A program made the position numbers and the translations under genes. A stretch of DNA of 64,000 bases from Desulfatibacillum alkenivorans DSM 16219. Its GTDB lineage: Bacteria; Desulfobacterota; Desulfobacteria; Desulfobacterales; Desulfatibacillaceae. The stretch spans positions 1-64,000 of the forward strand of contig NZ_FQZU01000001.1 in assembly GCF_900142135.1 (NCBI RefSeq), written 5' to 3'. Under the pieces are notes generated by a model. It made no database searches, was not told where the DNA came from, and was given only the letters and a program-made list of their open reading frames with translations. Shown one piece after another: positions 1 to 31,726 of the stretch; the first letter of the stretch is position 1, and each line of letters opens with the position of its first letter.

Positions 1-177
1 TTTTGACAGCCATCGCTTTCGTTTTTTGCCGAAATTCTCAATTTGCTCGTATGTGTCAGCCCCGGATACCACGGCGCATATGGCCATGACGATGATGTCT
101 ATTAGTTTATGCAGCGCGTTATGATGCCGGGGATCTTGCACGGTCTCGAAATACTGGTCTATGGTGCGTTCTTCCAT
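1..177 (-). CDS. ISAs1-family transposase, N-terminal part
   Basis: Only the first 59 codons are visible; the gene continues past the left edge. The protein begins MEERTIDQYFETVQDPRHHN and continues with KLIDIIVMAICAVVSGAD and a YEQIENFGK segment. This is the DDE_Tnp_1-associated N-terminal domain of ISAs1 (H-repeat) transposases, which catalyse cut-and-paste movement of their own element. The start is supported by an AGGAGG ribosome-binding site on the minus strand six bases upstream. The DDE catalytic residues are not in the window, so it cannot be said whether the transposase is intact. Confidence 0.8.
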   Translation of the reverse strand, partial: MEERTIDQYFETVQDPRHHNALHKLIDIIVMAICAVVSGADTYEQIENFGKKRKRWLSK

Positions 178-330
178 GAGCGCCTCCTTTGTTTAAGTCG
201 CCCACAGACCTTACACCAGTGCTTTAAAAAAGTCTAGTTGAAAAATATTTATAAGTATTTCAAGTTATTATAGATGTGCTACCATATACTGCACCCTGAA
301 GCCCGTCTTTTTTTACATGCGTATGCCCTG
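1..330 (-). mobile_element. End of an ISAs1-family insertion sequence (partial)
   Basis: The window opens inside an insertion sequence. The minus-strand reading frame at the left edge encodes an ISAs1-type transposase N-terminus. About 150 bases upstream of its start, the minus strand reads CAGGGCATACGCATG from position 330, a CAGGG-type terminus of the kind ISAs1 elements carry. I therefore place the IS border near 330. The opposite end and the target duplication lie outside the window, so the border is an inference. Confidence 0.5.
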
Positions 331-692
331 CAACGAAAATCGGTTTTGAGGGCCTTTGAGCCCCCTCGACTTTCTTAAGAAATTGGGCTGTTTGGAACAG
401 GGCGGGTTCAAAATAACATTTAATTGCATGGCGTGGCGCCTAAAGCCGAAATATGTGTAACGGCCCATAAAACGCCCCCCAAAAAAAAAGGCGTGACATG
501 AAGGGCGAATTATGACATATTCCACCCTTTCATCAACCGGTTTTCCGCCGCTTGTGAAAATCGATTTCTGAAAAGGCTTGAACTAAGGTTGCGTTGTTGA
601 CTAAGCTGCTGGGAGTAAGGCTTTCCGGCCTTAGCTGAATAATATGGACCCCCGTTTATTTCGGGGGCTGGATAAGGGAAAAAGGAGAAAGC
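331..692. other. Intergenic leader between IS end and redox operon
   Basis: No convincing gene is present. A 70-codon minus-strand open frame here has no family resemblance and low-complexity ends. Two hairpins lie just upstream of the redox operon: TAAGGC/GCCTTA at 616-633 and CCCCCG/CGGGGG at 649-667. The second ends 25 bases before the first gene, upstream of its AAGGAG ribosome-binding site, so it could influence translation or mRNA stability. No clear sigma-70 or sigma-54 promoter was recognised. Confidence 0.5.
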
Positions 693-2456
693 ATGTTATT
701 CGGTGACAAACTGCTTACCGTGATTTTCTACGCCTCGTTGGCTGTGTTTGTCTTGGGGACTATTTATAAGGTCTACGGGTGGTTTAAAGCAAAGGTCGGC
801 GCTCAGGCGCCGGACGCCGCCCCCGGGGAACGCATGGGCGCCGCCTTCAAGGGCGTTGTAGGAATGATTTTCAGCAAGAAGCTCTTCACCTTTCTGGAGG
901 CCCTGTTCCTGGACGTGATTTTGGGCCGCCGTCAATTCCAGGTGGACAAATTGCGCTGGATCATGCACTCCATGATCTTATGGGGCTTCACCTTGCTGGT
1001 GATCTTCCACGCCTTTGGAAAGCTGGTCAACCCCTGGTTTGTGGGAGAGTATTATTCGACCCTCAATCCGTTCTGGGTGCTTAGGGACGTTTTCGCAGTC
1101 ATGGTCTTTGCGGGAATCATCCTGGCCATCGTCCGCCGCGTCGCCAAAAAGAGCCCGCGCCTCAGCTCCAGCCCCATGGATATTTACGCCATCATCATCG
1201 TGGCTGTTATCATGTGCTCCGGCGTCTTGTATCAGGCCGCCCAGATGACTTCCTATTCCCTGTTTGTGGAAATGGTGGAATATTGGGCCGGCTTGGACAT
1301 GTACGATGACGAGGAGGACGTCCAGGCCATTGAGGCGTTCTGGGTCGCCAACTACGGATTGGTCTCCCCCAATATTGAGGAGCCGGATCCGGACATGGTG
1401 GAAATGGGAATCGACGCCAATGACAGCTATTGCGCGTCCTGCCATACCGCTTCCCCCAAAGCCTTTTTGAGCTACGGCTTCGCCAAGATGCTCAGCCCCA
1501 TGGCCGGCGTCTTGGACGGCTCCCGCAAAGCCTTGAAGTACTTCCATTTGCTGGCTTGCTTTTTGGGGCTGGCATATCTGCCTTTCTCCAAGATGTTCCA
1601 CCTGATTTCCACGCCCATCAGCCTGATCGCCAGCCGCGTGATGGACGAGAATTCCCTGCCCGAGAACATCGCCACCAGGCAGGCCATGGAGTTGGACGCA
1701 TGCGTCCACTGCTGCACATGCAGCAACACCTGTTCAGCCATGATGGCCAGCGTCACTTCCGGCAATAAGCTGGTGCTGCCTTCCGAAAAGATGCAGAGCC
1801 TCAAGAAATTGGCCAACGGCGGCGAGCTGAACGCCGATGAGCTGGAAGCCGTGAGCTACGGCGTATATATGTGCACCAACTGCAACCGCTGCACCGCGGT
1901 CTGTCCGTCGGGCATCATTCTTAAAGACCTGTGGATGTCCGTGCGCGAGTCCCTGATTCAGAAGCAAAAGGCCCAGCCCATGGTTCTGACGCCTTTGTCT
2001 TTCTTCCGCGGGTACAACCGCGCCAGGATCGCCCCGGAAACCTACGGCGCTCCGGCTCAAAAAGCCCAGGAAGCCGTGGCCGGCAAGTTCGAGCAACTGG
2101 CCGCCAAGGATGTCTCCATAGACATCACCCAGGCGTCTTCGGCAAAGGCCAATCCCATGTTTGCCTATTGCTTCGGGTGCCAGACCTGCACCACGGTTTG
2201 TCCTGTGGTGGGCGGGTTTGAGAATCCCGAAGAGGAGCTGGGTTTGGTTCCCCATCAGATCATGTGCTCTCTGGCCATGGGCCTGGAGGAAATGGCTTCC
2301 GGCTCCAAGATGATCTGGGACTGCCTGACCTGTTACCAGTGTCAGGAGCACTGCCCCCAAAAGGTTCCGGTTGCGGACATCCTTTATGATCTCAAAAATT
2401 TGGCTGCAGCGCGGGTGTTGCCCGAAAAGCAGGCCGAGAGCAGGAAGACCAAGTAG
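693..2456 (+). CDS. Membrane-bound Hdr-like iron-sulfur protein with a CxxCH motif
   Basis: This 587-residue protein combines a membrane part resembling the cytochrome b-type subunits of Hdr/Dsr/Nar complexes with a C-terminal ferredoxin-type part. Hydrophobic segments lie near residues 8-28, 90-115, 132-150, 160-185 and 285-310. Between the fourth and fifth is CASCH (about 247-251), a possible covalent heme c site. The C-terminal half holds four cysteine motifs: CVHCCTCSNTC, CTNCNRCTAVCP, CFGCQTCTTVCP and CLTCYQCQEHCP, enough for several [4Fe-4S] clusters. Such proteins pass electrons between the quinone pool and soluble Hdr subunits (family knowledge). An AAGGAGAAAGC ribosome-binding site precedes the ATG. 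It is the first gene of a row with hdrB, a selenocysteine hdrA piece and a nuoE-like gene. The electron-transfer direction cannot be read from the sequence. Confidence 0.82.
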   Translation: MLFGDKLLTVIFYASLAVFVLGTIYKVYGWFKAKVGAQAPDAAPGERMGAAFKGVVGMIFSKKLFTFLEALFLDVILGRRQFQVDKLRWIMHSMILWGFTLLVIFHAFGKLVNPWFVGEYYSTLNPFWVLRDVFAVMVFAGIILAIVRRVAKKSPRLSSSPMDIYAIIIVAVIMCSGVLYQAAQMTSYSLFVEMVEYWAGLDMYDDEEDVQAIEAFWVANYGLVSPNIEEPDPDMVEMGIDANDSYCASCHTASPKAFLSYGFAKMLSPMAGVLDGSRKALKYFHLLACFLGLAYLPFSKMFHLISTPISLIASRVMDENSLPENIATRQAMELDACVHCCTCSNTCSAMMASVTSGNKLVLPSEKMQSLKKLANGGELNADELEAVSYGVYMCTNCNRCTAVCPSGIILKDLWMSVRESLIQKQKAQPMVLTPLSFFRGYNRARIAPETYGAPAQKAQEAVAGKFEQLAAKDVSIDITQASSAKANPMFAYCFGCQTCTTVCPVVGGFENPEEELGLVPHQIMCSLAMGLEEMASGSKMIWDCLTCYQCQEHCPQKVPVADILYDLKNLAAARVLPEKQAESRKTK

Positions 2457-2534
2457 CAACAGGGCTTCCCGGGCGGACTCCGCCCGTATATATAAAAGTT
2501 TTTACGAACAACCAGGCAAAATAGGACATAGATT

Positions 2535-3404
2535 ATGAACTACGCATTGTTCTTGGGATGCAATATTCCGGCGCGGGTCCCCCAATACGATCAGGCGGCT
2601 CGTGCAGTGCTGAACAGACTGGGCGTCGAGGTTCTGGATATACCGGATTTCAACTGCTGCGGATATCCCATGCGGGACACGGATTCTCAGGCCTTTTTGC
2701 TTTCCTCGGCCCGGAACCTGGCTTTGGCCGAACAGTCCGGCTTGGATATGATGGTGCTGTGCAAATGCTGTTTCGGCGCCCTCAAAGCCGCAAGCTACGC
2801 TCTGGCGCAGGACTCGGCCCTTAAAAATGAAATCAACGCCTTGCTGGAGCCGGAAAAACTGTCTTACCAGGGGAAGGTGAAAGTAAAGCACTTCTTTTCC
2901 GTACTCCAAGACTCCGTGGGCCTTGACGAAGTGAAAAAGAAGGTGGAACGGCCTTTCCAGGGCCTTCGCATAGCAACCCATTACGGGTGTCACGCCTTGC
3001 GCCCCAGCGCCGTCACGGAATTTGACGACCCCGTCAATCCCAGCTTGTTCGATAAACTGGTGGAGGCCACCGGCGCTGAAAGCGTGGATTGGGCGGAAAA
3101 AACCGATTGCTGCGGCGCTCCCCTGATGGGCGCTAATGACGAGTTGTCCCTGAAGATCACCGGGAAAAAGCTCAAGGGCGCACGCAAGGCGGGAGCCCAC
3201 TTCCTGTGCGCAGGCTGCCCTTATTGCCAGATGCAATTTGACACGGTGCAGGCTTCCTTTATAAAATCGGAGCCGGGCAAAGGACCGATGGCGTCCATCC
3301 TGTATCCCCAACTCCTGGGCCTGTCCATGGGCATCGACGCCAAGGACCTGGGGTTGGATAATAATTGTTTGGACATCAGCAGCATCAAGCTGTTTCTAAA
3401 ATAA
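2535..3404 (+). CDS. hdrB: HdrB-type subunit (two CCG domains)
   Basis: The 289-residue product has the two cysteine-rich CCG domains of heterodisulfide reductase subunit B. Domain 1 carries C9, the NCCGYP motif near 41-42 and a CKCCFGA motif; domain 2 carries GCHALRPS, DCCGAPLMG and CAGCPYCQMQ. In HdrB these cysteines bind noncubane [4Fe-4S] clusters where disulfide substrates are reduced (family knowledge). The natural disulfide in a sulfate reducer is unknown; DsrC-type or small-thiol substrates are possible. It lies 78 bases after the membrane FeS gene and 15 bases before the hdrA fragment, so co-transcription is likely. The ribosome-binding site (AGGACA) is weak and 9 bases from the ATG. 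Confidence 0.88.
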   Translation: MNYALFLGCNIPARVPQYDQAARAVLNRLGVEVLDIPDFNCCGYPMRDTDSQAFLLSSARNLALAEQSGLDMMVLCKCCFGALKAASYALAQDSALKNEINALLEPEKLSYQGKVKVKHFFSVLQDSVGLDEVKKKVERPFQGLRIATHYGCHALRPSAVTEFDDPVNPSLFDKLVEATGAESVDWAEKTDCCGAPLMGANDELSLKITGKKLKGARKAGAHFLCAGCPYCQMQFDTVQASFIKSEPGKGPMASILYPQLLGLSMGIDAKDLGLDNNCLDISSIKLFLK

Positions 3405-3419
3405 GTAAAGGAGAAAACG

Positions 3420-3809
3420 ATGGCTGACCAGACTGTAGGTTCGGTCCTGGTGGTGGGCGGCGGAATTTCCGGCATGCAGACCGCCCTGGACCTGGCCGAT
3501 TCCGGCTATTACGTGTACTTGTTGGAAAAAAGTCCGTCCATTGGCGGGGTGATGTCTCAGTTGGACAAAACCTTCCCCACCAATGACTGCGCCATGTGAA
3601 TCATCTCTCCGAAACTGGTCGAGGTCGGCCGGCATCTGAACATAGAGTTGATTACATATTCCGATCTGGAGTCCGTGGAAGGAGCTCCGGGAAAATTCAA
3701 AGTCAAGGTTCGCAAAAGAGCGCGCAGCATCAGCACGGACCTTTGCACGGGTTGCGGCGCCTGCCTGGATGCATGCCCGGTTACCAATATAGTCAATGCT
3801 CCGGCCTGA
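3420..3809 (+). CDS. hdrA: Short HdrA FAD/ferredoxin module, selenocysteine at codon 60 (TGA recoded)
   Basis: Reading from the ATG at 3420 (AAGGAG upstream), the frame matches the HdrA flavin domain: dinucleotide motif [21 protein letters not shown], then FPTNDCAM followed by an in-frame TGA at 3597-3599 and [12 protein letters not shown]. In HdrA proteins this place is the second Cys of a CxxC motif, and it is selenocysteine in some lineages. The frame continues without a stop through [12 protein letters not shown], one [4Fe-4S] motif, and ends at TGA 3807-3809, giving 129 residues with Sec. A candidate SECIS hairpin follows the TGA. Full HdrA proteins are several times longer, so this is only the FAD half. 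An ordinary gene caller would miss it or split it. A nonsense mutation is unlikely because conservation continues on both sides. Confidence 0.82.
3615..3632 (+). promoter_or_regulatory. Candidate bacterial SECIS hairpin in hdrA
   Basis: Sixteen bases after the recoded TGA, the mRNA can fold a six-pair stem, CUGGUC with GGCCGG (two G-U pairs), closing a six-base loop GAGGUC. The loop contains AGGUC, like the apical loop of the E. coli fdhF SECIS (AGGUCU). The loop guanines are about 26 bases from the UGA, within the distance used by bacterial SelB. This supports selenocysteine insertion, but the fold was judged by eye. Confidence 0.6.
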
Positions 3810-3839
3810 TTCGACGCCGGACAAAGCCTAGGGTGCAAC

Positions 3840-4310
3840 ATGAAAAAAACAGATATTGACTGGCCCAAGATTACAAAGATCGTTCAAGACTATAATTCAG
3901 ACCCCGAGTGCCTGCTTATGATTATGCAGGATATCAGCGACATATATAATTATGTGCCGCCTGAGGTCATTCCCGTTCTGGTGGAAAAGCTGGGCGTCAG
4001 CGAAAGCCTGATATACAGCGTGGCGACCTTCTATAAAACCATCAGCCTGGAGCCCAGGGGTAAATACATCATCAACGTGTGCACCGGAACCGCCTGCCAC
4101 GTCCGCGGAGCCGAGAAGATCACCCATGCTCTGGCCGAGGAATTGGGCATTGAAGAAGGCCAGACCACGGCCGACGGCATGTTCACCCTGGATGCGGTGC
4201 GTTGCGTTGGCGCTTGCGCCTCCGGCCCGGTGGCCATGGTGAACCACGACACCCACGGCGCCCTGAACCGCTCCAGCGCCCTGGAAATGCTGGATCAGTA
4301 CAGGAAGTAG
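3840..4310 (+). CDS. nuoE: NuoE-like [2Fe-2S] thioredoxin-fold subunit
   Basis: The 156-residue product is a NuoE/HndA-type protein: an N-terminal helical region, PEVIPVLVEKLGVSESLIYSVATFY, then the thioredoxin-like [2Fe-2S] domain with CTGTAC (C81 and C86) and CVGAC (C122 and C126), the four cluster ligands. NuoE proteins pair with NuoF and pass electrons between NADH/FMN and other FeS subunits (family knowledge). It begins 30 bases after the hdrA stop and lies in the same reading frame. A NuoF-like partner is not adjacent but is encoded at 26133. The operon ends with a strong terminator 35 bases downstream. Confidence 0.88.
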   Translation: MKKTDIDWPKITKIVQDYNSDPECLLMIMQDISDIYNYVPPEVIPVLVEKLGVSESLIYSVATFYKTISLEPRGKYIINVCTGTACHVRGAEKITHALAEELGIEEGQTTADGMFTLDAVRCVGACASGPVAMVNHDTHGALNRSSALEMLDQYRK

Positions 4311-4345
4311 TCCCTGTAAATTTGCAGCAACCAATTTGGTTTTGA

Positions 4346-4380
4346 AAAGGCCCGCGCTTGCGCGGGCCTTTCTTTTTTTT
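4346..4380 (+). terminator. Rho-independent terminator of the Hdr/NuoE operon
   Basis: A GC-rich hairpin, AAAGGCCCGCG with CGCGGGCCTTT and a short TTG-like loop, is followed by a run of eight T residues. It lies 35 bases after the nuoE-like stop. Confidence 0.92.
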
Positions 4381-4462
4381 CAGGTTTGCTTGATTTCCAA
4401 CCCCCGCCTATAGGATAATACGGCCATTAATTGTCCTGAAGCATCCCAAGGGGAGGGTAAAT

Positions 4463-5902
4463 ATGAAAATCGCCATTGTAGGAGGCGGAAGCCGCTGTTT
4501 GTTTTTCATCAACATTTTGGCGACCTACAGGTTTTCTTCGGAAGTCCAGCCTCAAATTGTAGCCATAGCGGATATTAACCCGGACGCGCCGGGCGTAAAG
4601 CATCTGGTTGAGCGCGGGGTTTATTACACCGATGACTATTCCGAGTTTTTGACCAGGGAGGACCTGGACGTCGTGCTGGACCTGACCGGGGACGAAGAAA
4701 TTTTCACGTATCTTTGCAAGGAAAGAAACCTCCTCACCACCGTCCTCAACGACGAAACCGGCCTGATTTTCTTCGAAGGCTACCGGCCCAGGGAATGCGC
4801 GGGCAGCAGGCAGCTGAATTTCAAGCGCACCAAGCAGCTTTGCGATCTTTTTTTTACGGAGCTGGTCAATGAGGAAGTTTTTGTCATCGACACTTCGTTT
4901 ACCATTATCGATGTCAATAATCTGCCCTTGCAAAAATACGGCCTGGAGCGCAAGGACGTCATAGGCAAGCATTGCTACGAGGTGACTCATCAGGTTAAGG
5001 AGCCATGCAGCAGCAAGGCCCATCCCTGCCCCATGGTGGAAATTCAAAAAACCAGGCAGCCATACCGCTGCACCCATATTCACTACGACAAGGAAGGCCA
5101 CCGCATCCTCCACTCCATTTCGGCCTATCCCATATTCGAGGCCAACAAGATCGTGGGCATCGTGGAGCTGGCCCGGGACATCACCTGGGAAACCAGCCTC
5201 CAAAAATCCTTTGGAGACCAGGAGAAACTTTCCGCCATCGGCCGCCTGGCCGCCGGCGTGGCCCATGAACTGAACAATCCCCTGACTACGGTGCTCACCT
5301 CCACCATGCTCATTCAGGAGGACATGGACCCCAAACATCCGGATTACGAGGAACTGGACCTCATTAAAAACGAAACCCTCCGGTGCCGGAACATTGTGAA
5401 CAACCTCCTGAACTTTGCACGCCAGTCCAAGCCCATCAAGCAGGAAGCGGACCTGAACGAGATCGTGCAAAGCAGCATGGCCCTTATCCGCAAACAGGCG
5501 GATTTCAAGAATATCGTCATGAAATGCGACACCTGCCCGGAAAGGCTCATGGTCTATTGCGACCGGGACCAGATCCAGCAATGCCTCATCAACCTGGGGC
5601 TGAACGCCATTGACGCCACAGCGCCCGGAGGCCGCATCACCTTCACCACGTCCCTGGTGGACGACGGCAAAATGGCGAAGATTTCCGTGGCTGACACGGG
5701 AGAGGGGTTGCCCCAAAACATCAAGGACAGCATTTTCGAGCCTTTTTTCACGACCAAGGAGACGGGCACCGGCCTGGGGCTTTCCATCACCCACGGCTTT
5801 GTCAAGCAGCATAAGGGATTCATCGACCTGGAAAGCACCCAGGGGCACGGCGCCACATTCTCCATAAGGCTGCCCTTTCAGAGGGAGGAGGCCCATGCCT
5901 GA
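4463..5902 (+). CDS. PAS sensor histidine kinase with N-terminal Rossmann-like domain
   Basis: The 479-residue protein has three parts. Residues 1 to about 115 form a Rossmann-like domain starting MKIAIVGGGSRC, with VAIADINPDAPG and VLDLTGDEE, like the dinucleotide-binding domain of dehydrogenases. A PAS domain follows (about 135-245) and carries a cysteine cluster: HCYEVTH, PCSSKAHPCPM and YRCTHIHY. The transmitter has the HisKA box GVAHELNNPL with phospho-accepting H268 and an HATPase domain with DTGEGLP and GTGLGLSI. There is no membrane segment, so it should sense a cytoplasmic signal, possibly nucleotide or redox state (inference). A GGGGAGGG ribosome-binding site supports the start. It overlaps the next gene, its probable partner, by 8 bases. 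Confidence 0.87.
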   Translation: MKIAIVGGGSRCLFFINILATYRFSSEVQPQIVAIADINPDAPGVKHLVERGVYYTDDYSEFLTREDLDVVLDLTGDEEIFTYLCKERNLLTTVLNDETGLIFFEGYRPRECAGSRQLNFKRTKQLCDLFFTELVNEEVFVIDTSFTIIDVNNLPLQKYGLERKDVIGKHCYEVTHQVKEPCSSKAHPCPMVEIQKTRQPYRCTHIHYDKEGHRILHSISAYPIFEANKIVGIVELARDITWETSLQKSFGDQEKLSAIGRLAAGVAHELNNPLTTVLTSTMLIQEDMDPKHPDYEELDLIKNETLRCRNIVNNLLNFARQSKPIKQEADLNEIVQSSMALIRKQADFKNIVMKCDTCPERLMVYCDRDQIQQCLINLGLNAIDATAPGGRITFTTSLVDDGKMAKISVADTGEGLPQNIKDSIFEPFFTTKETGTGLGLSITHGFVKQHKGFIDLESTQGHGATFSIRLPFQREEAHA

Positions 5903-7328
5903 ACCCAAGGCCAAAATCCTCGTCATTGACGATGAAGAGGCCATCTGCAGGAATTGCGAAAAAATCCTCTCCCGCTCCGGCCATACCGTCAAATGGGCTT
6001 TGAACGGGTACAAGGCCATGGAGATGATGTACAAGGAGGCCTTTGACCTTGTCATCACGGACCTCAAAATGAATTCCATGGGCGGCCTGGAAGTCCTCTC
6101 CCGCGTCAAGGATGAGTGGCCCCAAACCCAGGTGATCGTCATCACGGGCTACGCCTCGGTGTCCTCGGCCGTGGAGGTCATGAAGACCGGCGCCTTTGAC
6201 TACCTGCCCAAACCCTTCACCCCGGACGAACTCCGGGGCGCCGTGCGTCAGGCCCTGGCGCCGGAAGAGCTGTTCAACGACGCCAAGCCGGACGTCAAAA
6301 AAATCTCCCGAAAAATCACCACCCACCAGCTTGTGGGGGACAGCCCCCAGATGCAGGGCGTCATCCGCATGCTCGCCAAGGTGGCGCCCACGGATTCCAA
6401 CGTGCTCATTTACGGAGAATCGGGCACGGGCAAGGAAGTGATCGCCCGGGCCATCCATGCCAACAGCAAGCGCAAAGGGGAGGTTTTTTTCGCCGTGGAC
6501 TGCGGCGCCCTGGCCGAAAATCTTTTGCAAAGCGAGCTTTTCGGGCACACCAAGGGAGCTTTCACAGGCGCGGTCAAGGATAAAAAAGGCATATTCGAAC
6601 TGGCCGACGGAGGCACGGTCTTCCTGGACGAGGTGAGCAGCATCAGCATGTCCATTCAAAGCAACCTGCTCCGGTTTTTGGAAACCAGGGAGGTGCTGCC
6701 CATAGGCGGAACCGCACCGGTCAAGGTGGACGTTAGACTGATCTTCGCCACCAACCAGGATCTTAAGGAGATGGTGAGCCAGGGGAAATTGCGGGAGGAT
6801 TTTTACTACCGCATCATGGTGTATCCCATTTTCACCCCTCCGCTCAGGGAGCGCAGGGCCGACATCCTGCCCATCGCCTACCATTTTCTGGACTTGTTCT
6901 CCCACTCCATGAGCAAGGATATTCGGAGCTTTTCCCCGGACGCCGCGGAAATCCTCCTGGATCACTCCTGGCCCGGGAACGTGCGCCAGCTTCGCAACGC
7001 CATTGAAAGAGCGGTAATCCTGTGCGAAGGCCGCACCATCTCGGCCAGGGAGTTGGAGCATCTCCAGGACAGGCCCGGTCAGGAGCATCACCAGGGTGCG
7101 TACACCATCACCCATGACTATCAGGTTCCCGCAAACGCCGAAGAGCTTAAAGAGGCCAAAAAAATCATCCGGCAGTTGGCGGTGGAGCAGGTGGAGCGGG
7201 ATTTTTTAACCCAGGCCCTGGAAAACGCCGGCGGCAATATCACCCGGGCCGCCGAGCAGGTGGGCATGCAGCGCAGCAATTTTTCCAACCTCATGAAAAA
7301 ACACGGCGTCCGCGCCGTAAAAAAATAA
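5895..7328 (+). CDS. NtrC-type sigma-54 response regulator
   Basis: This 477-residue protein has the full NtrC layout. A receiver domain carries DDEE near the start, phospho-acceptor D56 in VITDLKM and the usual lysine in YLPKPF. The AAA+ domain has Walker A GESGTGKE (about 174), the sigma-54 contact loop GAFTGA (about 222) and GGTVFLDEV. A C-terminal Fis-type helix-turn-helix (about 440-475) carries GGNITRAAEQVGMQRSN. Phosphorylation should license it to remodel sigma-54 RNA polymerase at target promoters. The start overlaps the upstream kinase gene, so the two form a two-component system. Its targets are unknown; the sigma-54 promoters at 24500 and 40487 are candidates only. Confidence 0.93.
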   Translation: MPEPKAKILVIDDEEAICRNCEKILSRSGHTVKWALNGYKAMEMMYKEAFDLVITDLKMNSMGGLEVLSRVKDEWPQTQVIVITGYASVSSAVEVMKTGAFDYLPKPFTPDELRGAVRQALAPEELFNDAKPDVKKISRKITTHQLVGDSPQMQGVIRMLAKVAPTDSNVLIYGESGTGKEVIARAIHANSKRKGEVFFAVDCGALAENLLQSELFGHTKGAFTGAVKDKKGIFELADGGTVFLDEVSSISMSIQSNLLRFLETREVLPIGGTAPVKVDVRLIFATNQDLKEMVSQGKLREDFYYRIMVYPIFTPPLRERRADILPIAYHFLDLFSHSMSKDIRSFSPDAAEILLDHSWPGNVRQLRNAIERAVILCEGRTISARELEHLQDRPGQEHHQGAYTITHDYQVPANAEELKEAKKIIRQLAVEQVERDFLTQALENAGGNITRAAEQVGMQRSNFSNLMKKHGVRAVKK

Positions 7329-7389
7329 CTTTGGATTTGAAAAAGCGGATTTCTTTATAAATCCGGAACCATGCAGGGAGTTTTACAGA

Positions 7390-7767
7390 ATGGCGAAGCA
7401 GGATGACAAAAAAAACCGGATTGTGGCCGACGCCCTGGCCTCCCAAAAGGAAAGGGAAAAAGGCTACCGGGAGAAGGCCCTCAAGATGTATCCCCACGTT
7501 TGCGGCAAGTGCGGCCGGTCCTTTGAAGGCAAGCGGATCCAGGAACTGACCGTCCACCACAGGGACCACAACCACGACAACAATCCCCCGGACGGCAGCA
7601 ACTGGGAGCTTTTGTGCATCTATTGCCATGAGGACGAACACGCCCGCCACTCCGTGGCCGACGCCTACGGCGGCCGCAACACGGAGGAGGACGCGGCCGG
7701 CGGAGACATGGACAACAAGCCTTTCGCCAACCTGGCGGCCCTGCTGCAGAAGAAAAAAAGCAGATAG
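7390..7767 (+). CDS. Small HNH nuclease-like protein (YajD type)
   Basis: The 125-residue product starts with a lysine/glutamate-rich helix (residues 1-33) followed by a zinc-knuckle HNH domain: CGKCGRSF, then TVHHRDHNHDNN, then NWELLCIYCHEDEH. The CxxC pairs would hold zinc, and HH followed by N and H are the ββα-metal residues. This resembles YajD-type HNH proteins; their cellular role is not settled. A short acidic tail and a basic end (KKKSR) follow. It starts 61 bases after the response regulator with GGGAG 11 bases before the ATG, so it may be read from the same transcript. No toxin or immunity partner is adjacent. Confidence 0.8.
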   Translation: MAKQDDKKNRIVADALASQKEREKGYREKALKMYPHVCGKCGRSFEGKRIQELTVHHRDHNHDNNPPDGSNWELLCIYCHEDEHARHSVADAYGGRNTEEDAAGGDMDNKPFANLAALLQKKKSR

Positions 7768-7884
7768 CCGGGATTCAAACCAGGGAAAAGGGGGCTTATG
7801 CAGGTCAATCCAAGGTTTTTCCCATAGGCTTGCGACGCTCTGGAAAGAATCCTACCGCTCGGTAAAAAAATCGCAAAAAAATAT

Positions 7885-7913
7885 TTGACATAGTTTGGTA
7901 TGCGAACTATATT
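7885..7913 (+). promoter_or_regulatory. Sigma-70 promoter with MarR operator in its spacer
   Basis: TTGACA at 7885-7890 and TATATT at 7908-7913 are separated by exactly 17 bases, a near-consensus sigma-70 promoter. The spacer contains the interrupted palindrome GTTTGGTATGCGAAC (7893-7907). The same 15-mer, with one change, recurs at 8423 before the next gene. A repressor bound here would cover the promoter, as expected for MarR autorepression. Transcription should begin about position 7920. Confidence 0.72.
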
Positions 7914-7920
7914 TGCAGCC

Positions 7921-8394
7921 ATGGAAACGAGATCAACATACACCGACATTCTTAAGCTCTTCAGAAGGGTGGTCAATAAATACCGCAGCCTGGAAAAAGC
8001 GCCCATCCTGTTCGGTACTGGCGACTCTCTTTTCAGACAGGAAGTCAGCGCCATTCAGGCCATCGGCGCAGACCCGGGCAGGAACGTGAGCGAACTGGCC
8101 CATATTCTGGGCGTCACCAAAGGAACCGCGTCGCCCATCGTGACGCGCCTGGCCAAGCGGGGTTTGGTGAATAAGTATAAGAACTTGGATAATAACAAGG
8201 AAGTGCTCCTGGAACTCACCGTTCGGGGCGAAAGCGTGTATCACGAGAATGAGCTTTTGCTGATTAAGCTGCGCCAAGCCCTTTTTGAACGCTATGAAAA
8301 GGAAAATCCTGAGTATTTGGAGTTCTTGAAGGATTTTTTAGTGCAGATGGAAGAGTTGATCGAAGAGCACTATGCCGAGCTTCGGAGCCAGTAG
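7921..8394 (+). CDS. MarR-family transcriptional regulator
   Basis: The 157-residue protein has the MarR winged-helix core: AIQAIGADPGRNVSELAHIL, then the recognition segment TKGTASPIVTRLAKRGLV, then the wing NKYKNLDNNKEVLLELT, with helices at both ends for dimerisation. I chose the ATG at 7921. The in-frame ATG at 7900 lies inside the promoter spacer and would not be in the mRNA if transcription starts near 7920. That would make the message leaderless or nearly so; no ribosome-binding site is visible before 7921. The operator in its promoter and its copy at 8423 suggest autoregulation and control of the exported-protein gene. The ligand is unknown. Confidence 0.87.
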   Translation: METRSTYTDILKLFRRVVNKYRSLEKAPILFGTGDSLFRQEVSAIQAIGADPGRNVSELAHILGVTKGTASPIVTRLAKRGLVNKYKNLDNNKEVLLELTVRGESVYHENELLLIKLRQALFERYEKENPEYLEFLKDFLVQMEELIEEHYAELRSQ

Positions 8395-8422
8395 GCGGAC
8401 CCCCTTTTTTTTGGGATATATG

Positions 8423-8437
8423 GTTTGGTATGCTAAC
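8423..8437. promoter_or_regulatory. Second MarR-type operator
   Basis: GTTTGGTATGCTAAC matches 14 of 15 bases of the operator in the upstream marR promoter. It lies 29 bases after the marR stop and 160 bases before the exported-protein gene. This suggests that the same regulator controls the downstream gene. Confidence 0.6.
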
Positions 8438-8596
8438 AAAATCCTAACGGATTGGGGCGAAAGCAAACGTGGAACCCGCCGGAATAAGGCCCCCGGGCCG
8501 CCGGCTTTAACATACCGGAAAGAGATTTGTTCGGCCGGCAAATCTCAGCTCCGGGCAAAACATATTTAACCGTGCTTTATTTAAAGGAGTGGCAGC

Positions 8597-9145
8597 ATGA
8601 AAAAGATGGTTTTTTTGTGTACATTGATCGTGGGATTTTGCGCAGCGCTGAGTCCCGCCATGGCTGGGGAGATCGCCTCCCTGCAGGTTGTTGATTTTCC
8701 CAAGGCCGACCTCATGATCGTATTCGCGGACAAGGACGCCGCTGTAGAAGCTCCCGCCCATGTGGATGTCAAGGGCTGCGGGGAATACTCTTTGGTCAGG
8801 CTGCTGGATTACTCGGCGGGAAAAGCCATGGTAGCCTCCATGCCTTGGGGCCACAAATCCGTCGCCAAGGAGGAATGGACCCAGTTGGAAGGTTGGTTTA
8901 AAAACGCCGTCATGGAAAAGAACGGTAAAGAGGGCTTCCTGGCCGCAGCCGTGCCTGAAGGCAGTTTTTACTCTGTGGACCAGGGCGCGGCCGGCGCCGT
9001 CGCCAAAGCGGGAACCGGAGAGGACGTTGCAGCGATCCTGGAAAACTCAAAGACCCCCGCAGTGGGCAAATACATCCTGGAAAAGGAGCATCACAGCTGG
9101 TGGCCGCCCAGGGCGCCGGAAGATGATATGATTCCCACCATCTAA
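8597..9145 (+). CDS. Exported protein of unknown function
   Basis: The 182-residue product begins with a clear Sec signal peptide: MKK, a hydrophobic stretch, and a likely cleavage after SPAMA near residue 23. I recognise no family in the mature part. It contains GCGEYSLVRLLDY and ends HHSWWPPRAPEDDMIPTI, rich in aromatic and proline residues. It has only one mature cysteine, so a disulfide-stabilised fold is unlikely. AAGGAG precedes the ATG by 7 bases. The upstream copy of the MarR operator suggests that it is the regulated target of the neighbouring MarR protein. It is followed by a strong terminator 158 bases downstream. Confidence 0.75.
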   Translation: MKKMVFLCTLIVGFCAALSPAMAGEIASLQVVDFPKADLMIVFADKDAAVEAPAHVDVKGCGEYSLVRLLDYSAGKAMVASMPWGHKSVAKEEWTQLEGWFKNAVMEKNGKEGFLAAAVPEGSFYSVDQGAAGAVAKAGTGEDVAAILENSKTPAVGKYILEKEHHSWWPPRAPEDDMIPTI

Positions 9146-9302
9146 CGGCAGGATTTACCCGGAGTTGTAATTGCGGACCGGGAGATTCCCCCCTTTTCCC
9201 GGCCGCCCGGCGAATGCCGCCCCGGCTCCCCAGAGATCGCGCCCCTTCCGCGATCGTTGGCCGGCGCAATCATCCGCCTGACGGATACTGTTTCGGGTGT
9301 TT

Positions 9303-9339
9303 CACGGGCCTCTGATAATCAGAGGCCCGTGTTTATTTT
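9303..9339 (+). terminator. Rho-independent terminator
   Basis: A 13-pair perfect hairpin, CACGGGCCTCTGA with TCAGAGGCCCGTG and a TAA loop, is followed by TTTATTTT. It closes the marR/exported-protein unit. Between it and the gene lies a small inverted repeat, GATCGCG/CGCGATC, at 9235-9255. Confidence 0.9.
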
Positions 9340-9565
9340 AAGGAGGAGTCAAGGCGGCTGCTTGGGGCTTGGCCGCCGTCTATTCTGTAAGTTGAAAGCC
9401 TTGCCAAATCCCCGAAAATCCCAGGTCAAAAAACATAAAAGGGACTGTTTTCCTCAAAGACTTGTGATTGGCTTGCCAAAACGCTGCTTTTGTGATTAAT
9501 GAAAGCCATTCCACTTCATCCCATCCACAATAAGACGGAACGCAGCTTTAGCCAGGGGAGGAAAA
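9340..9565. other. Intergenic region before the NfeD/flotillin pair
   Basis: No gene was recognised. An 80-codon plus-strand frame across it has no convincing start or family. No clear promoter was seen. GGGGAGG at the right end is the ribosome-binding site of the next gene. Confidence 0.4.
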
Positions 9566-10171
9566 ATGGACGGTTTAAACACCTTGGAGATCTTTTACCT
9601 GTTTTGCGCACTCTTGGGCGGAATTCTCGTCGTCTTCAGGATGATCATGCAAGTCCTGGGGGCGGCGGATGTGGATATGGATTCCGGCGGCGGCGTGGGC
9701 GGCGATATGGGCGGCGACGTGGGAGGAGACGTGGGCGGCGATGCTTCCGGCCATGACGACTCGGACGCGGGATTCAAGCTGCTGTCCATGCATGGGCTTT
9801 CCTCCTTCATGCTTATGTTCGGGCTGGTGGGTTACATTGTATATCATAATGAACGGGCCGGGGTCGCCCTGTCCCTGGTTGCAGGCTCGTTCGCCGGATA
9901 TATCAGCGTATGGATTATCAAAAGAATTTTCGACTTCATGATCAAAATGCAGTCCAGCGGCACCTTGGAGATGTCAGCCGCCGTGGGCGCCGAAGGCGAG
10001 GTCTACCTGACCATTCCTAAAGGCGGGGCCGGCAAGGTGATGGTGAATTTCTGCGGGCGTCTGCGCGAGTTCGAAGCCATGTCCGAAAACGGCGAGGAAA
10101 TGAAAACCGGAGTAAGAATCAAGGTGGTCCGCATCAGCGGGAGCACCTTAATGGTGGATCGAATGGTGTAA
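9566..10171 (+). CDS. NfeD-like membrane protein partnered with flotillin
   Basis: The 201-residue protein has a first membrane helix (about 8-30), then a Gly/Asp-rich linker (about 35-65, repeats of GGDxGGD) which may bind divalent ions, then two more hydrophobic segments (about 72-115). The C-terminal soluble domain (about 130-201: GAEGEVYLTIPKGGAGKVMV ending GSTLMVDRMV) looks like the OB-fold of NfeD proteins. NfeD proteins are typically encoded beside and work with SPFH proteins in membrane microdomains (family knowledge), which fits the flotillin gene 42 bases downstream. GGGGAGGAAAA precedes the ATG. Confidence 0.75.
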   Translation: MDGLNTLEIFYLFCALLGGILVVFRMIMQVLGAADVDMDSGGGVGGDMGGDVGGDVGGDASGHDDSDAGFKLLSMHGLSSFMLMFGLVGYIVYHNERAGVALSLVAGSFAGYISVWIIKRIFDFMIKMQSSGTLEMSAAVGAEGEVYLTIPKGGAGKVMVNFCGRLREFEAMSENGEEMKTGVRIKVVRISGSTLMVDRMV

Positions 10172-24515: not shown

Positions 24516-24568
24516 CTTAAGGAAAGCGACGATGTAACGTGAAACACCTCTTACGAAAGGAGGACCTT

Positions 24569-25903
24569 ATGAGCCAAATCCAAAGAATCTTAGTGGTGGA
24601 CGACGAGCCCGGCATCCTGCAGAACGTGACCAAAATTCTGTCCAAAGCCGAATATGAGGTCTTCCAGGCGTCCAGCGCCAAGGAAGCGCTGGAAGAGATG
24701 GCCAAGCGGTCATACTCCCTGTTGATTTCGGATATAGTCATGCCGGAAATGAATGGCCTGGAATTGCTCAAAATGGTCAAGAACCAATGGCCCCTGACCC
24801 AGGTGCTGATGATGACGGCTTACGCTTCCACGGAAACCGCCGTCAAGGCCATCCGCCTGGGCGCCCTGGATTATCTGCCCAAGCCTTTCACCCCGGACGA
24901 ACTGCGCGAACTGGTGGACCGGTCCGTGGCCGGAGACCTGTACGAAGCCTCGGTGGGCGACGTGGAGCGGGAAGACATTGACGCCATGCACCTGAACCTG
25001 CCCCTGGACATGCTTTCGGAAGCGGACGTGGGGGAGGGCTTCTGCGACATCGGCAAGAAGGTTTGCAATGTTTTCCAGAAGTTGGGCCACACCTGCAAGG
25101 CCGGCGAGAAAAAGGGCCTGTGCCCCCAAGAGGCCAAAAAGGCCAAGGCCGAAGACGCCGCCCCTGCCATTCAGGAGTTGATCGGCGTGGATATGCCTTT
25201 TAACTACGAGGAAGTGGTGGAAGCCACAGGCCCGGAATACGTGGCCAACCTGGGGCGCGACGGCTTTGCGTTCATGCCCTACGAGGAGCTGAAGGCCAGC
25301 GCCGCGCGCATGGAGGCCCGTTTGAACCGGGCCAGGCTGGCGGCCATGTACAAGAAGAAGGAAAGTCATATCCCCGGGACCACCGACGCCCTGTCCGACA
25401 TTACGGACGCCGTGGGAACCGAGTACGTCAAGCATTTGGATCGCGACGGGTTCTCCCGCATTCCCTTTGAGGAGCTGAGGGGAAGCGTCCGGAAGATGGA
25501 GGCGAAATTGAGCGGTAAGGAGATTGAACTGGCCCTGGCCTCGGATATTCTGGTGGTTGACGACGAGGTGGCGGTCAATAACAACATCCGAAAGATTCTG
25601 AAAAAAGGGCAGTACACCGTGGATCAGGCGACCACGCGGGACGAAGCCCTGGAAAAAGTCAGCAAGGGATTTTACCGGGTCATCATCCTGGATCTCAAGA
25701 TGCCCGGCGTGGTCGGACTGGAGCTCCTGGAAGCGGTGCACAAAATGCAGCCTAACGCCAAGATTGTGATCATCACCGGGTACGCCAGCATCGAGACGGC
25801 CGTGGAGACTTCCCGACTCGGCGCCATGCTGTACGTTCCCAAGCCCTTCACCCCCGCAGAAATTCGCACGGCTGTGGAAAAGGCCTCCCGCCTTGCCGCA
25901 TAG
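24569..25903 (+). CDS. Double-receiver response regulator without output domain
   Basis: The 444-residue protein has receiver domains at both ends. The first (about 4-120) has VVDDEP, phospho-acceptor in LISDIVMPEMNG and YLPKPFTPDEL; the second (about 325-440) has VVDDEV, IILDLKMPGVVG and YVPKPFTPAE. Between them are a segment with four cysteines (CDIGKKVCNVFQKLGHTC and a fourth Cys) and two related blocks, EATGPEYVANLGRDGFAFMP and DAVGTEYVKHLDRDGFSRIP, each followed by a helix with RMEARL or KMEAKL. There is no DNA-binding or enzymatic domain. It may act as a phosphate sink or switch two partners. I chose the ATG with AGGAGG upstream. It is driven by the sigma-54 promoter. Confidence 0.88.
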   Translation: MSQIQRILVVDDEPGILQNVTKILSKAEYEVFQASSAKEALEEMAKRSYSLLISDIVMPEMNGLELLKMVKNQWPLTQVLMMTAYASTETAVKAIRLGALDYLPKPFTPDELRELVDRSVAGDLYEASVGDVEREDIDAMHLNLPLDMLSEADVGEGFCDIGKKVCNVFQKLGHTCKAGEKKGLCPQEAKKAKAEDAAPAIQELIGVDMPFNYEEVVEATGPEYVANLGRDGFAFMPYEELKASAARMEARLNRARLAAMYKKKESHIPGTTDALSDITDAVGTEYVKHLDRDGFSRIPFEELRGSVRKMEAKLSGKEIELALASDILVVDDEVAVNNNIRKILKKGQYTVDQATTRDEALEKVSKGFYRVIILDLKMPGVVGLELLEAVHKMQPNAKIVIITGYASIETAVETSRLGAMLYVPKPFTPAEIRTAVEKASRLAA

Positions 25904-25926
25904 CCGAGTTGCGACCCCTCATAACA

Positions 25927-25963
25927 GGCCGCGGAACCCTTAGGGGTCCGCGGCCTTTTTTTA
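25927..25963 (+). terminator. Rho-independent terminator
   Basis: GGCCGCGGAACCC and GGGGTCCGCGGCC pair to a long GC-rich stem, followed by TTTTTTTATT. It ends the double-receiver transcript 24 bases after its stop. Confidence 0.93.
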
Positions 25964-25992
25964 TTGACAATGTTTTTCCTCATCAGTATTCT
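25964..25992 (+). promoter_or_regulatory. Sigma-70 promoter upstream of the nuoF-like gene
   Basis: A perfect TTGACA (25964-25969) and TATTCT (25987-25992) are separated by 17 bases. The leader to the nuoF-like ATG would be about 135 bases. No other promoter was seen between the terminator and the gene. Confidence 0.6.
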
Positions 25993-26132
25993 TTTGGTTT
26001 CTTGATAGTTTGCGCGGGGAGGTTCCGGCCTCATCCGCCGGACCTGGTTTGACCAAATCATGAATGTTACATTAAGCTGCGTGTTTCGGGCGATTTTTAA
26101 TTCTCTATACGCGCCTGGGGCGCCGGAGGTAG

Positions 26133-27989
26133 ATGGTGGACAGGTTAAAAAACAGAGACGAACTAATTACACTCCGTAAAAACCTTGTGGCCCAGCACAA
26201 GGATGGCAATAAAAAACTTATTTCCCTCTGCTCCGGATCGGGCTGCGGCGCTTACGGCACTGCCAGCGTTTACGACAGCCTTGTGGCCGAACTGAAGAAA
26301 GCCGGCCTTTCCGATCAAGTGGAGGTGCGTCTTACGGGCTGCCATGGCTTTTGTGAAAAAGGCCCTATCATGGTCATTCACCCGGAGGGAATTTTCTATC
26401 CCCAGGTGAAGCCCGACATGATTCCTGACATCGTGGAGATGACGCTGAAGAACGGGGAGATCGTGGAGAAGTTCCTGTTCAAGGACCCTGTCAGCAAAAA
26501 GAAAATCATCCACGAAAAGGACATCCCCTTTTACAAGCTCCAAAAGCGCGTCATTTTCGGCCGCAACCAGATGATCGATCCCACGAACGTCCTCCACTAT
26601 ATCGCCGAGGACGGTTACAAGGGCCTGGAAAAAGCCTTGTTCGAAATGGAGCCCCAACAGATCATCCAGGAAATCAAGGGCGCCGGCCTCAGAGGCCGGG
26701 GCGGCGGCGGCTTTCCCACGGGCATTAAGTGGGCCTCCTGCGCCAAGCATGACGGCGACCGCTACGTTATCTGCAACGCGGACGAAGGCGACCCCGGCGC
26801 ATACATGGACCGCAGCCTTTTGGAAGGCAACCCCCACAGCATCATCGAGGGCATGCTCATCGCGGCCGTGGCCATGCAGTCCCACAACGGCTTCGTCTAC
26901 GTGCGCCATGAGTATCCCCTGGCGGTCAAGAACCTGAACATCGCCCTGAAAAGCGCCCGGGAAATCGGTCTTTTGGGCAAGAACATCCTGGGTTCGGGCT
27001 TTGATTTCGACATCAAGGTCAGCCGGGGCGGCGGCTCCTTTGTCTGCGGCGAGTCCACGGCGCTCATGGCCTCCCTGGAAGGAAAACCCGGCAGGCCCCG
27101 CGCCAAATACGTCCATACCGTGGAAAAGGGATTCCGGGAAAGCCCCTCCTCCCTGAACAACGTGGAAACCTACGCCAACGTGCCCCATATCATCAACAAC
27201 GGCGCCGAATGGTACGCCTCCATGGGAACCGAAGGCAGCAAGGGCACCAAGATCTTCTCCCTGGTGGGCAACGTGGTGAACACCGGCCTGGTGGAAGTGC
27301 CCATGGGAACCAACCTCCGCACCATCATCTACGACATCGGCGGCGGCATTCCCAAGAAAAAGAAATTCAAGGCGGTCCAGAGCGGCGGGCCTTCCGGCGG
27401 CTGCATCCCGGAGCAATTCCTGGACGTCCCCGTGGACTTTGACGAACTGGTCAAGATCGGGTCCATGATGGGCTCCGGCGGCATGATCGTCATGGACCAA
27501 GACACCTGCATGGTGGACGTGGCCCGGTACTTTCTGGACTTCCTCAAGGAAGAATCCTGCGGCCAGTGCAACCCCTGCCGCGAAGGCATCAAGCAGATGC
27601 TGGACGTATTGACCCGCATCTGCGCCGGCCACGGCAAGGAAGGCGACATCGAGCTCCTGGAGGAACTGGGCGCCATGGTCCAGAAATTCTCCCTGTGCGG
27701 CTTGGGAACCTCCTCGCCCAACCCGGTTTTGACCACCCTCATGTATTTCCGGCATGAGTACGAAGCGCATATCAAGGACAAAAAATGCCCCGCGGGCGTG
27801 TGCAAGCCCCTGTTCCACTACGAGATCGTGGACGGAACCTGCACAGGCTGCGGCCTTTGCGCCCGGAAATGTCCCCAGGACGCCATCACAGGGGCCAAAA
27901 AGGAAACCCATGTGCTGGACCAGGACAAATGCATCAAGTGCGGCATTTGCTACGATGCATGCAAGTTTAACGCAATTGCAATCCGATAA
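26133..27989 (+). CDS. nuoF: NuoF-like NADH:FMN subunit with extra ferredoxin domains
   Basis: This 618-residue protein has the HndC/NuoF layout. An N-terminal thioredoxin-like [2Fe-2S] domain (about 30-115) contains CSGSGC and TGCHGFCEKGP. The flavin/NADH core has GRGGGGFPTG (about 187), NADEGDPGAYMDR and the SLBB region. ESCGQCNPCREG (about 474) binds a [4Fe-4S] cluster. The C-terminus carries two ferredoxin motifs, CTGCGLCARKCP and CIKCGICYDAC. Such subunits oxidise or reduce NAD(H) in bifurcating hydrogenases, formate dehydrogenases and Hdr complexes. GGAGGTAG precedes the ATG. It is followed by a NuoG/HdrA fusion gene 21 bases later. A partner NuoE is at 3840. Confidence 0.93.
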   Translation: MVDRLKNRDELITLRKNLVAQHKDGNKKLISLCSGSGCGAYGTASVYDSLVAELKKAGLSDQVEVRLTGCHGFCEKGPIMVIHPEGIFYPQVKPDMIPDIVEMTLKNGEIVEKFLFKDPVSKKKIIHEKDIPFYKLQKRVIFGRNQMIDPTNVLHYIAEDGYKGLEKALFEMEPQQIIQEIKGAGLRGRGGGGFPTGIKWASCAKHDGDRYVICNADEGDPGAYMDRSLLEGNPHSIIEGMLIAAVAMQSHNGFVYVRHEYPLAVKNLNIALKSAREIGLLGKNILGSGFDFDIKVSRGGGSFVCGESTALMASLEGKPGRPRAKYVHTVEKGFRESPSSLNNVETYANVPHIINNGAEWYASMGTEGSKGTKIFSLVGNVVNTGLVEVPMGTNLRTIIYDIGGGIPKKKKFKAVQSGGPSGGCIPEQFLDVPVDFDELVKIGSMMGSGGMIVMDQDTCMVDVARYFLDFLKEESCGQCNPCREGIKQMLDVLTRICAGHGKEGDIELLEELGAMVQKFSLCGLGTSSPNPVLTTLMYFRHEYEAHIKDKKCPAGVCKPLFHYEIVDGTCTGCGLCARKCPQDAITGAKKETHVLDQDKCIKCGICYDACKFNAIAIR

Positions 27990-31379: not shown

Positions 31380-31720
31380 TAGCGTAGGCTGGGCGGAGCT
31401 TCCGAAACCCTAAATAATTGATCGGTTATCCTTGATAGAAGGCAAGTTGGAATTTGCGAAACCCAACAAAAAACAATGTCGGGTTTGAAGTCCTCCAACG
31501 TTTTCGCCCGTGTGAACCGCCAAGCCGGACTACGCAACCCGACCTACGGCTCTGCATGGAGCGGCGTAGGTTGGGTAGAGCTTGCGAAACCCAACAAAAT
31601 TGATCGGTTATCCTTGATAGAAGGCAAGTTGGAATTTGTGAAATCCAACAAGAAAATTATTGTCGGGTTTGAAGTCCTCCAACGTTTTCGCCCATATAAA
31701 TCGCAAAGACGGATTTAGTA
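31380..31720. repeat. Array of dispersed intergenic repeats, left of the CHAT cassette
   Basis: A 60-base segment starting TTGATCGGTTATCCTTGATA occurs at about 31419 and again 180 bases later at about 31599, each followed by a copy of the GTCGGGTTTGAAGTCCTCCA repeat (31477-31602 complete; 31657-31720 partial and diverged). Short open frames in this stretch are products of the repeat and not genes. Confidence 0.8.
31477..31602. repeat. 126-bp direct repeat, left copy
   Basis: The sequence from TGTCGGGTTTGAAGTCC to ACCCAACAAAATTG is repeated at 36379-36504 with a single difference (T/C at the GAGCYTGCG position), judged by eye. The two copies lie on either side of the CHAT/TPR gene pair. A degenerate relative is at 60537-60661. 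Confidence 0.92.
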
Positions 31721-31726
31721 ATCCGA

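Follow-up and report, generated by a model that had tools for sequence, protein, structure and literature searches.

The window analysed here, a 64,000-nt stretch of the Desulfatibacillum alkenivorans DSM 16219 genome, carries on its forward strand at positions 3420–3809 a gene, hereafter referred to as hdrA_N, that is predicted to encode a 129-aa selenocysteine (Sec)-containing N-terminal piece of a split HdrA. A standard ORF finder returns a 59-aa ORF from it. Read with the in-frame TGA at 3597–3599 (+) as Sec (residue 60), the translation displays a FAD-binding beta-alpha-beta unit with its GGGISG start, a CxxU motif in which the TGA occupies the second Cys position of the NDCxxC motif of HdrA, and one 4Fe-4S motif (CxxCxxCxxxCP) located after Sec60 and followed by a TGA stop at 3807. 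Residues 8–121 matched HdrA chains of solved structure (8rvv_A with an E value of 2.4e-45; 5odc_A over its residues 146–258), with Sec60 aligning with position 197 of 5odc_A HdrA. The same protein matched positions 141–256 (of 777) of NF040770 at 158.2 bits, the full-length cut-off of 1100 bits not being reached. Thus, as the original prediction had it, HdrA sequence runs past the TGA to a [4Fe-4S] motif. The closest short gene in the named genomes (best 80 of 310 listed) was 95% identical and came from a Desulfatibacillum MAG; identity was also 95% with the short gene of G001, a genome of the window's genus.

hdrA_N lies just downstream of a gene for an HdrB-like (CCG) protein (2535–3404, +), itself preceded by that of an HdrC-like membrane iron-sulfur protein combining nitrate-reductase-gamma and 4Fe-4S dicluster parts (693–2456, +), and is followed by the gene for a NuoE-like [2Fe-2S] subunit of thioredoxin fold (3840–4310, +; 140.6 bits against a cut-off of 141). 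Two genes classed by reading as those of a histidine kinase and a sigma-54-type regulator come after NuoE (4463–7328, +). A NuoF-like subunit of the NADH/FMN-binding family is encoded 22 kb from NuoE (26133–27989, +; 462.7 bits against a cut-off of 558.7), 229 bp after the gene for a protein with two response-regulator domains (24539–25903, +), and precedes the gene for a 1077-aa protein (28011–31244, +; referred to as the partner), 24.6 kb from hdrA_N. NuoE, NuoF and NuoG-like domains are all present, NuoG being represented by only about the first 180 residues of the partner.

Evidence for a selenocysteine codon in hdrA_N

The codon at residue 60 was compared across 86 listed short loci drawn from the named genomes (best 80 of 310 relatives) and from relatives, some genomes being counted twice from two collections and short frames in G026 and G054 lying outside the examined set. 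It was TGA in 81 loci, TGC in four and TGT in one; the loci terminated in TAA (39), TGA (30) or TAG (17), and the tails past the Sec codon measured 65–86 residues. Because TGA predominates at this one codon while the terminal stops are mixed, a chance in-frame TGA is excluded. In all 44 aligned rows chosen from these loci, residue 60 was Cys or TGA (read as C) and the 4Fe-4S cysteines after it were invariant; the comparison with Cys-containing HdrA that had been proposed at the outset places the Cys homologues in register with the Sec codon. Estimates of dN/dS were 0.03 before the TGA and 0.07 after it (87 and 116 usable pairs, respectively, from 150 sampled). An assembly error in hdrA_N was considered and rejected on the 86-locus comparison and on codon conservation.

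A bacterial SECIS element is a hairpin located just after the UGA, with a G near the start of its apical loop. Such a hairpin is found at 3615–3632 (+), its stem (CTGGTCG/CGGCCGG) pairing 3615–3621 with 3626–3632 around the loop AGGT (AGGU in the RNA), in agreement with the rule of a G near the loop start; its first base is the 16th after the TGA, where it had been predicted to begin. Folding of 3597–3650 recovered this hairpin, as anticipated, but did not render it more stable than dinucleotide shuffles of the sequence (z -0.54; 55 of 200 equally stable); this single-sequence test not being significant, comparison was needed to decide on the SECIS. Across 71 distinct short TGA sequences, from which duplicates and sequences cut short were left out, codons +6 to +11 read CTG GTC GAG GTC GGC CGG without exception, making the 18 nt of the hairpin invariant in 71/71. 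The codons around this block mostly vary synonymously in the same sequences (mean pairwise dS ~1.7), and the search patterns used for the short loci did not contain the six SECIS codons. Measured against synonymous recodings, the hairpin scored a mean z of -1.93 across a set of 95 TGA sequences that included both short and long genes, and of -0.59 in 11 Cys sequences, three of which lay at -1.65 to -1.88. An Rfam search of 1–10000 yielded five matches, all below gathering scores and none of them a SECIS.

The genome was also found to contain the Sec machinery for which a search had been recommended, namely selA (531 bits), a SelB C-terminal domain (75 bits) and tRNA-Sec (76.1 bits against a gathering score of 47); ARAGORN reported no tRNA in the 64,000-nt window. 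Of 14 named genomes serving as controls, five scored above the cut-off for tRNA-Sec, two for SelA and one for the SelB domain, so that the tRNA hit alone is weak and selA and selB weigh more. With an in-frame TGA, conserved coding beyond it, the same codon in most short loci and this machinery, 3420–3809 is, as judged from its sequence, a selenoprotein gene with Sec at the CxxC position of HdrA, in line with the original prediction.

Complementarity of hdrA_N and the 1077-aa partner

Seven HdrA-type genes with a CxxC or CxxU motif were found in the genome, comprising hdrA_N, four full-length paralogues with TGA at the Sec codon (L011, L012, L014 and L015), one full-length paralogue with TGC (L013) and one short paralogue with TGC (L010). 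The open frames of HdrA relatives mostly exceed 1000 residues, against 129 in hdrA_N. In a tree of 102 rows, 69 short Sec and four short Cys genes grouped in one clade (98/92) together with two long Cys genes; the tree has too few columns for the split to be dated from it.

The partner starts with a NuoG-like N-terminus (residues ~1–185; 2Fe-2S and 4Fe-4S), continues with an HdrA devoid of its first part (~190–510) and ends with a second HdrA (527–1077) in which the N-terminal cluster domain is present and Cys197 absent. Its match to NF040770 (788.3 bits; cut-off 1100) was best over positions 256–566, compared to 141–256 for hdrA_N, and the two proteins cover residues 244–510 and 146–258 of 5odc_A, respectively. 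Jointly, they account for the N-terminal FAD domain and the inserted ferredoxin domain of HdrA. The paralogue L011 (a 1006-residue stretch) similarly aligned with hdrA_N over its residues 3–117 (72%) and, by BLAST, with the partner over its residues 52–1006 (55%), the overlap at 52–117 corresponding to the NuoG-like 4Fe-4S part of the partner laid against the HdrA motif. Since CxxCxxCxxxCP is found on both chains at the join, the pieces overlap slightly and the cut is not a clean one. In 26 aligned partners (that of the window and 25 relatives chosen of 39), Cys 534, 536, 569 and 594 were invariant and no Cys occurred at residues 700–726, the expected site of the motif. One chain therefore carries a cluster domain without Cys197, and the other, hdrA_N, carries the corresponding residue 60.

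The gene had originally been presented as an unusually short HdrA module, which holds as a description but misses that it forms the N-terminal half of a split HdrA, the complementary part being encoded at 28011–31244. On the evidence of these alignments, the short length of hdrA_N is that of a separately conserved subunit of a split HdrA and not the outcome of truncation, and hdrA_N and the partner very probably have to assemble to work. Single-chain structure models built from alignments of 44 (hdrA_N) and 26 (partner) sequences both had HdrA chains as their best structural matches. The hdrA_N model (mean pLDDT 64.3) displays a beta-alpha-beta core and an ill-defined CxxU region, with residues 51–60 below 50; that of the partner (mean pLDDT 70.6) falls below 50 at residues 119–261. 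The models would fit incomplete domains needing each other, short of proving it, and are too uncertain at the interface to be used there.

Gene order, linkage and co-occurrence of the two halves

The usual order in relatives is hdrA_N (short Sec), NuoE, NuoF and the NuoG/HdrA partner. A NuoE homologue directly follows hdrA_N in 80 of the 86 listed short loci, after which most loci of sufficient length continue with NuoF (~617 aa) and a protein of ~1080 aa. The six loci without NuoE are two near a contig edge (L119 and L126), the Cys genes L010 and L046/L135 (L046 and L135 appearing to be one locus), and L130, in the masked DNA of which none was found. As in the window, hdrA_N is preceded by HdrB, alone or accompanied by an HdrC-type gene, in L175, L181 and L183; by reading, such genes also lie near it in L212 and L213. 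Genes for MvhD and Flx-like proteins come after the partner in L178 and L180, as identified with Pfam, and in L176, L177 and L179, as judged by reading; in the window, no MvhD or other Sec gene was seen after the partner, nor a Flx-like gene just after it. Homologues of the kinase and sigma-54-type regulator lie upstream of hdrA_N in part of the relatives, and regulators that by reading resemble the protein with two response-regulator domains lie upstream of it in relatives such as L070, L072 and L082.

Relative to this order the operon of the window is rearranged, hdrA_N and NuoE being separated by the above 22 kb from NuoF and the partner, and the kinase/regulator genes standing after NuoE instead of before hdrA_N. 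The halves are also apart in G001, on different contigs. Inspection by eye of 25904–26132, between the regulator and NuoF, revealed nothing recognisable as a remnant of hdrA_N or NuoE. Between the partner and the gene for a 1215-aa protein (TPR-rich by reading), a 92-nt repeat occurs twice (89%) within 31382–31726, as does a 74-nt repeat (81%), with spacings of 182 and 184 nt. At the edge of the window, positions 1–177 (−) hold a gene start resembling, by reading, an ISAs1-type DDE transposase.

In 389 genomes of the host's order, set thresholds returned both halves in 87, the partner only in 21, the short gene only in six and neither in 275, i.e. the partner in 108 and the short gene in 93; the Fisher value of 2e-58 for this co-occurrence overstates it because related genomes are not independent. 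At 78 of 117 partner loci, a short gene in the same orientation was located within 6 kb upstream of the partner (75 TGA and three Cys; median 2893 nt), matches in frames of >215 residues being left out of this count except in G117 (listed frame 10839), where NuoE follows at once. Among 59 relatives, 14 had a split-type partner and 13 of these the short gene; the contig of G015 ends just before NuoF.

Of the 39 partner loci lacking a short gene alongside, 20 were inspected (G000, G001, G015, G045 and 16 loci of 15 genomes) and 19 judged from coordinates. The halves are separated in G000 (the genome of the window) and in G001; in G074, they lie at a great distance from each other on a single contig. 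A contig edge lies at the partner locus in G015, G081, G276, G285, G296, G136 and G237, and cuts the short gene in G108, G300 and G367. Short genes of 57–62% identity are in place in G181 and G323, and a Cys one in G045. G209 and G308 have no short gene beside the partner and a Cys short gene elsewhere, near HdrB and NuoF-like genes. No short gene was found near the partner of G263 and near one fetched partner copy of G269; at the other partner of G269, a Cys HdrA_N and the partner are fused in one 1228-aa ORF (L185).

Outside the host's order, Cys HdrA_N and NuoE share one frame of 228–244 residues in L216, L220, L221, L222 and L223. Of 395 genomes sampled from the phylum, 17 contained the partner, six of them being already included in the order count. 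The other 11, with one locus each, had a Sec short gene in two cases (G489 and G517) and an HdrA_N match upstream of NuoE in eight (that of G616 being truncated where the fetched stretch ends), G675 lying too near a contig edge. In the five of those eight in which the motif was read, it was Cys (5/5), and these are the five fusions of HdrA_N to NuoE just listed. From the presence of HdrA_N pieces across this sample, the cut is widespread in the phylum; the Sec form of the short gene was found in the host's order and one further family. Short HdrA_N genes of a second class, which have Cys and lie away from any partner, were also observed (G000:C3:27954–28325, listed as L010 and L203, and L204–L211). 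By reading, an HdrD-like gene (six loci) or MvhD neighbours several of them, and a 2-hydroxyacyl-CoA-dehydratase-like gene lies near those of L203, L204 and L211.

Discussion

We propose that hdrA_N is the subunit contributing Sec to a split HdrA, and that this HdrA belongs to a bifurcating complex fed by NADH, in which hdrA_N is joined with the partner and Sec60 acts as a ligand in trans, and we hold this reading with good, if not full, confidence. By homology to HdrA, hdrA_N would bring the first part of the FAD-binding (thioredoxin-reductase-like) domain, the remainder residing on the 1077-aa partner, and the two proteins would join non-covalently to restore one HdrA unit with a composite FAD site. 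Sec60, at the Cys197 position, would then act through its selenolate as a ligand of the iron-sulfur cluster that the partner's second HdrA carries in its N-terminal domain; as this second HdrA has four invariant Cys and no equivalent of Cys197, the simplest reading has hdrA_N completing the FAD domain of the first HdrA and donating its selenolate to the second HdrA's cluster. NADH oxidised by NuoE and NuoF would supply electrons to the HdrA flavins, which may bifurcate or confurcate electrons between ferredoxin and an HdrB-, MvhD- or Flx-linked partner. Given the MvhD/Flx-like or HdrB neighbours seen in relatives, ferredoxin and a DsrC- or disulfide-type acceptor appear likely. It is conceivable, albeit rather improbable, that hdrA_N is an exchangeable selenium ligand subunit for which a Cys paralogue (e.g. 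C3:27954–28325) substitutes when selenium is scarce, tuning the redox properties of the complex.

Were hdrA_N instead an independent small ferredoxin-flavin adaptor, folding alone and shuttling electrons between NuoE/HdrB and other proteins, one would expect it to keep its own 4Fe-4S motif, as it does in 44/44 aligned rows, and to occur without the partner, as do the orphan Cys short genes found near MvhD and HdrD-like genes with no 1077-aa-type partner in the fetched stretches. We nevertheless find this unlikely, since hdrA_N has no more than the opening part of a Rossmann FAD domain, the partner possessing what is lacking, and since it both co-occurs with the partner and is found fused to it. 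Another reading retains the split HdrA and dispenses with NADH-fed bifurcation, the short gene and NuoE of Desulfatibacillum working with HdrB and the membrane HdrC-like protein in menaquinone-linked transfer. The local order at 693–4310 (HdrC-like membrane protein, HdrB, hdrA_N, NuoE) suggests as much, and L181 (L044) has similar neighbours and L183 (L047) an HdrB. Both L181 and L183, however, keep NuoF and the partner downstream in the same cluster, so that the HdrB/C genes look added to the NADH module and not exchanged for it, which makes this proposal very unlikely. Harder still to sustain is the view, compatible with the 59-aa ORF of standard ORF finding, that the TGA is a plain stop ending a 59-aa peptide and that the downstream part is kept for other reasons such as RNA regulation: the codons past the TGA evolve as protein, Cys versions read through at the same codon, and the 4Fe-4S cysteines beyond it are invariant in the 44 aligned rows. 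The idea of a decayed remnant, that is, a truncated full-length HdrA with an ordinary TGA stop and a pseudogene behind it, might appeal to how much shorter hdrA_N is than its relatives, but is practically untenable in the face of a dN/dS of 0.07 past the TGA, an invariant SECIS block, a near-constant length in 86 listed loci ending in TAA, TGA or TAG, and conservation across many genera.

If hdrA_N is, as we propose, the Sec-bearing subunit of a split HdrA, then a core electron-bifurcating flavoprotein occurs in nature divided within its FAD domain, its Sec carried by the smaller part. The split would offer a handle on the role of residue 197, in that Sec, Cys or Ser versions of the 129-aa subunit could be mixed with one large partner. 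Because a gene caller stopping at the TGA yields a 59-aa fragment, the part needed to complete an NADH/Hdr complex can go unseen; the large half of that complex was found in 108 of 389 sampled genomes of the order.

FlxABCD-HdrABC is an NADH/heterodisulfide reductase. The assembly proposed here resembles it in bringing together NADH and HdrA and in the MvhD/Flx-like genes that follow the partner in several relatives, and differs from it in drawing, for its NADH side, on NuoE/NuoF and a NuoG-HdrA fusion as well. The nuoEFG-mvhD-hdrA units reported in Desulfotignum phosphitoxidans (PMC4046663) possibly represent, from their description only, the same gene set, with the 1077-aa-type gene called NuoG; neither a short selenoprotein nor a split HdrA is mentioned in the extracts consulted of that paper. 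Extracts of PMC9012536 describe how Cys197 of methanogen HdrA ligates the iron-sulfur cluster of the other HdrA, as well as tandem or fused HdrA heterodimers in which the cluster domain and Cys197 are divided between the two HdrA, each having only one of them. We take 5odc to be the structure meant in that paper, although M. wolfeii is the organism named there and Methanothermococcus thermolithotrophicus the one in the PDB title. Compared to these heterodimers, as the extracts present them, the Cys197-bearing segment is here a separate piece of the domain and the residue is Sec.

HdrA selenoproteins are already known from methanogens and deltaproteobacteria, as the original prediction stated (PMC1794560, PMC2702500 and PMC5109826, in extracts), and NF040770 is listed with CxxU in the part consulted of a review (PMC13188914). 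Like hdrA_N, these proteins carry Sec at the second CxxC position in a homologous sequence; the TGA relatives that we found are single long chains, however, whereas the Sec piece is here a 129-aa subunit. A search confined to open-access literature turned up no description of a split Sec-HdrA combined with NuoE/NuoF. A precedent for the split is a single sentence of PMC1794560, a paper covering hdrA_N/hdrA_C genes of S. fumaroxidans, on hdrA_N-unknown-hdrA_C genes in bacterial glpC-hdrA-frhDGA hydrogenase operons. Compared by this description only, those operons share with the present system an HdrA encoded as N- and C-terminal genes, and differ from it by the one unknown gene in between and the hydrogenase context, with no mention in the extracts of NuoE/NuoF or a NuoG-HdrA fusion. 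As far as these partly consulted sources allow, Sec-HdrA is thus known and an hdrA_N/hdrA_C split was mentioned once in passing, while the split Sec-HdrA/NuoE/NuoF assembly proposed here appears to be new.
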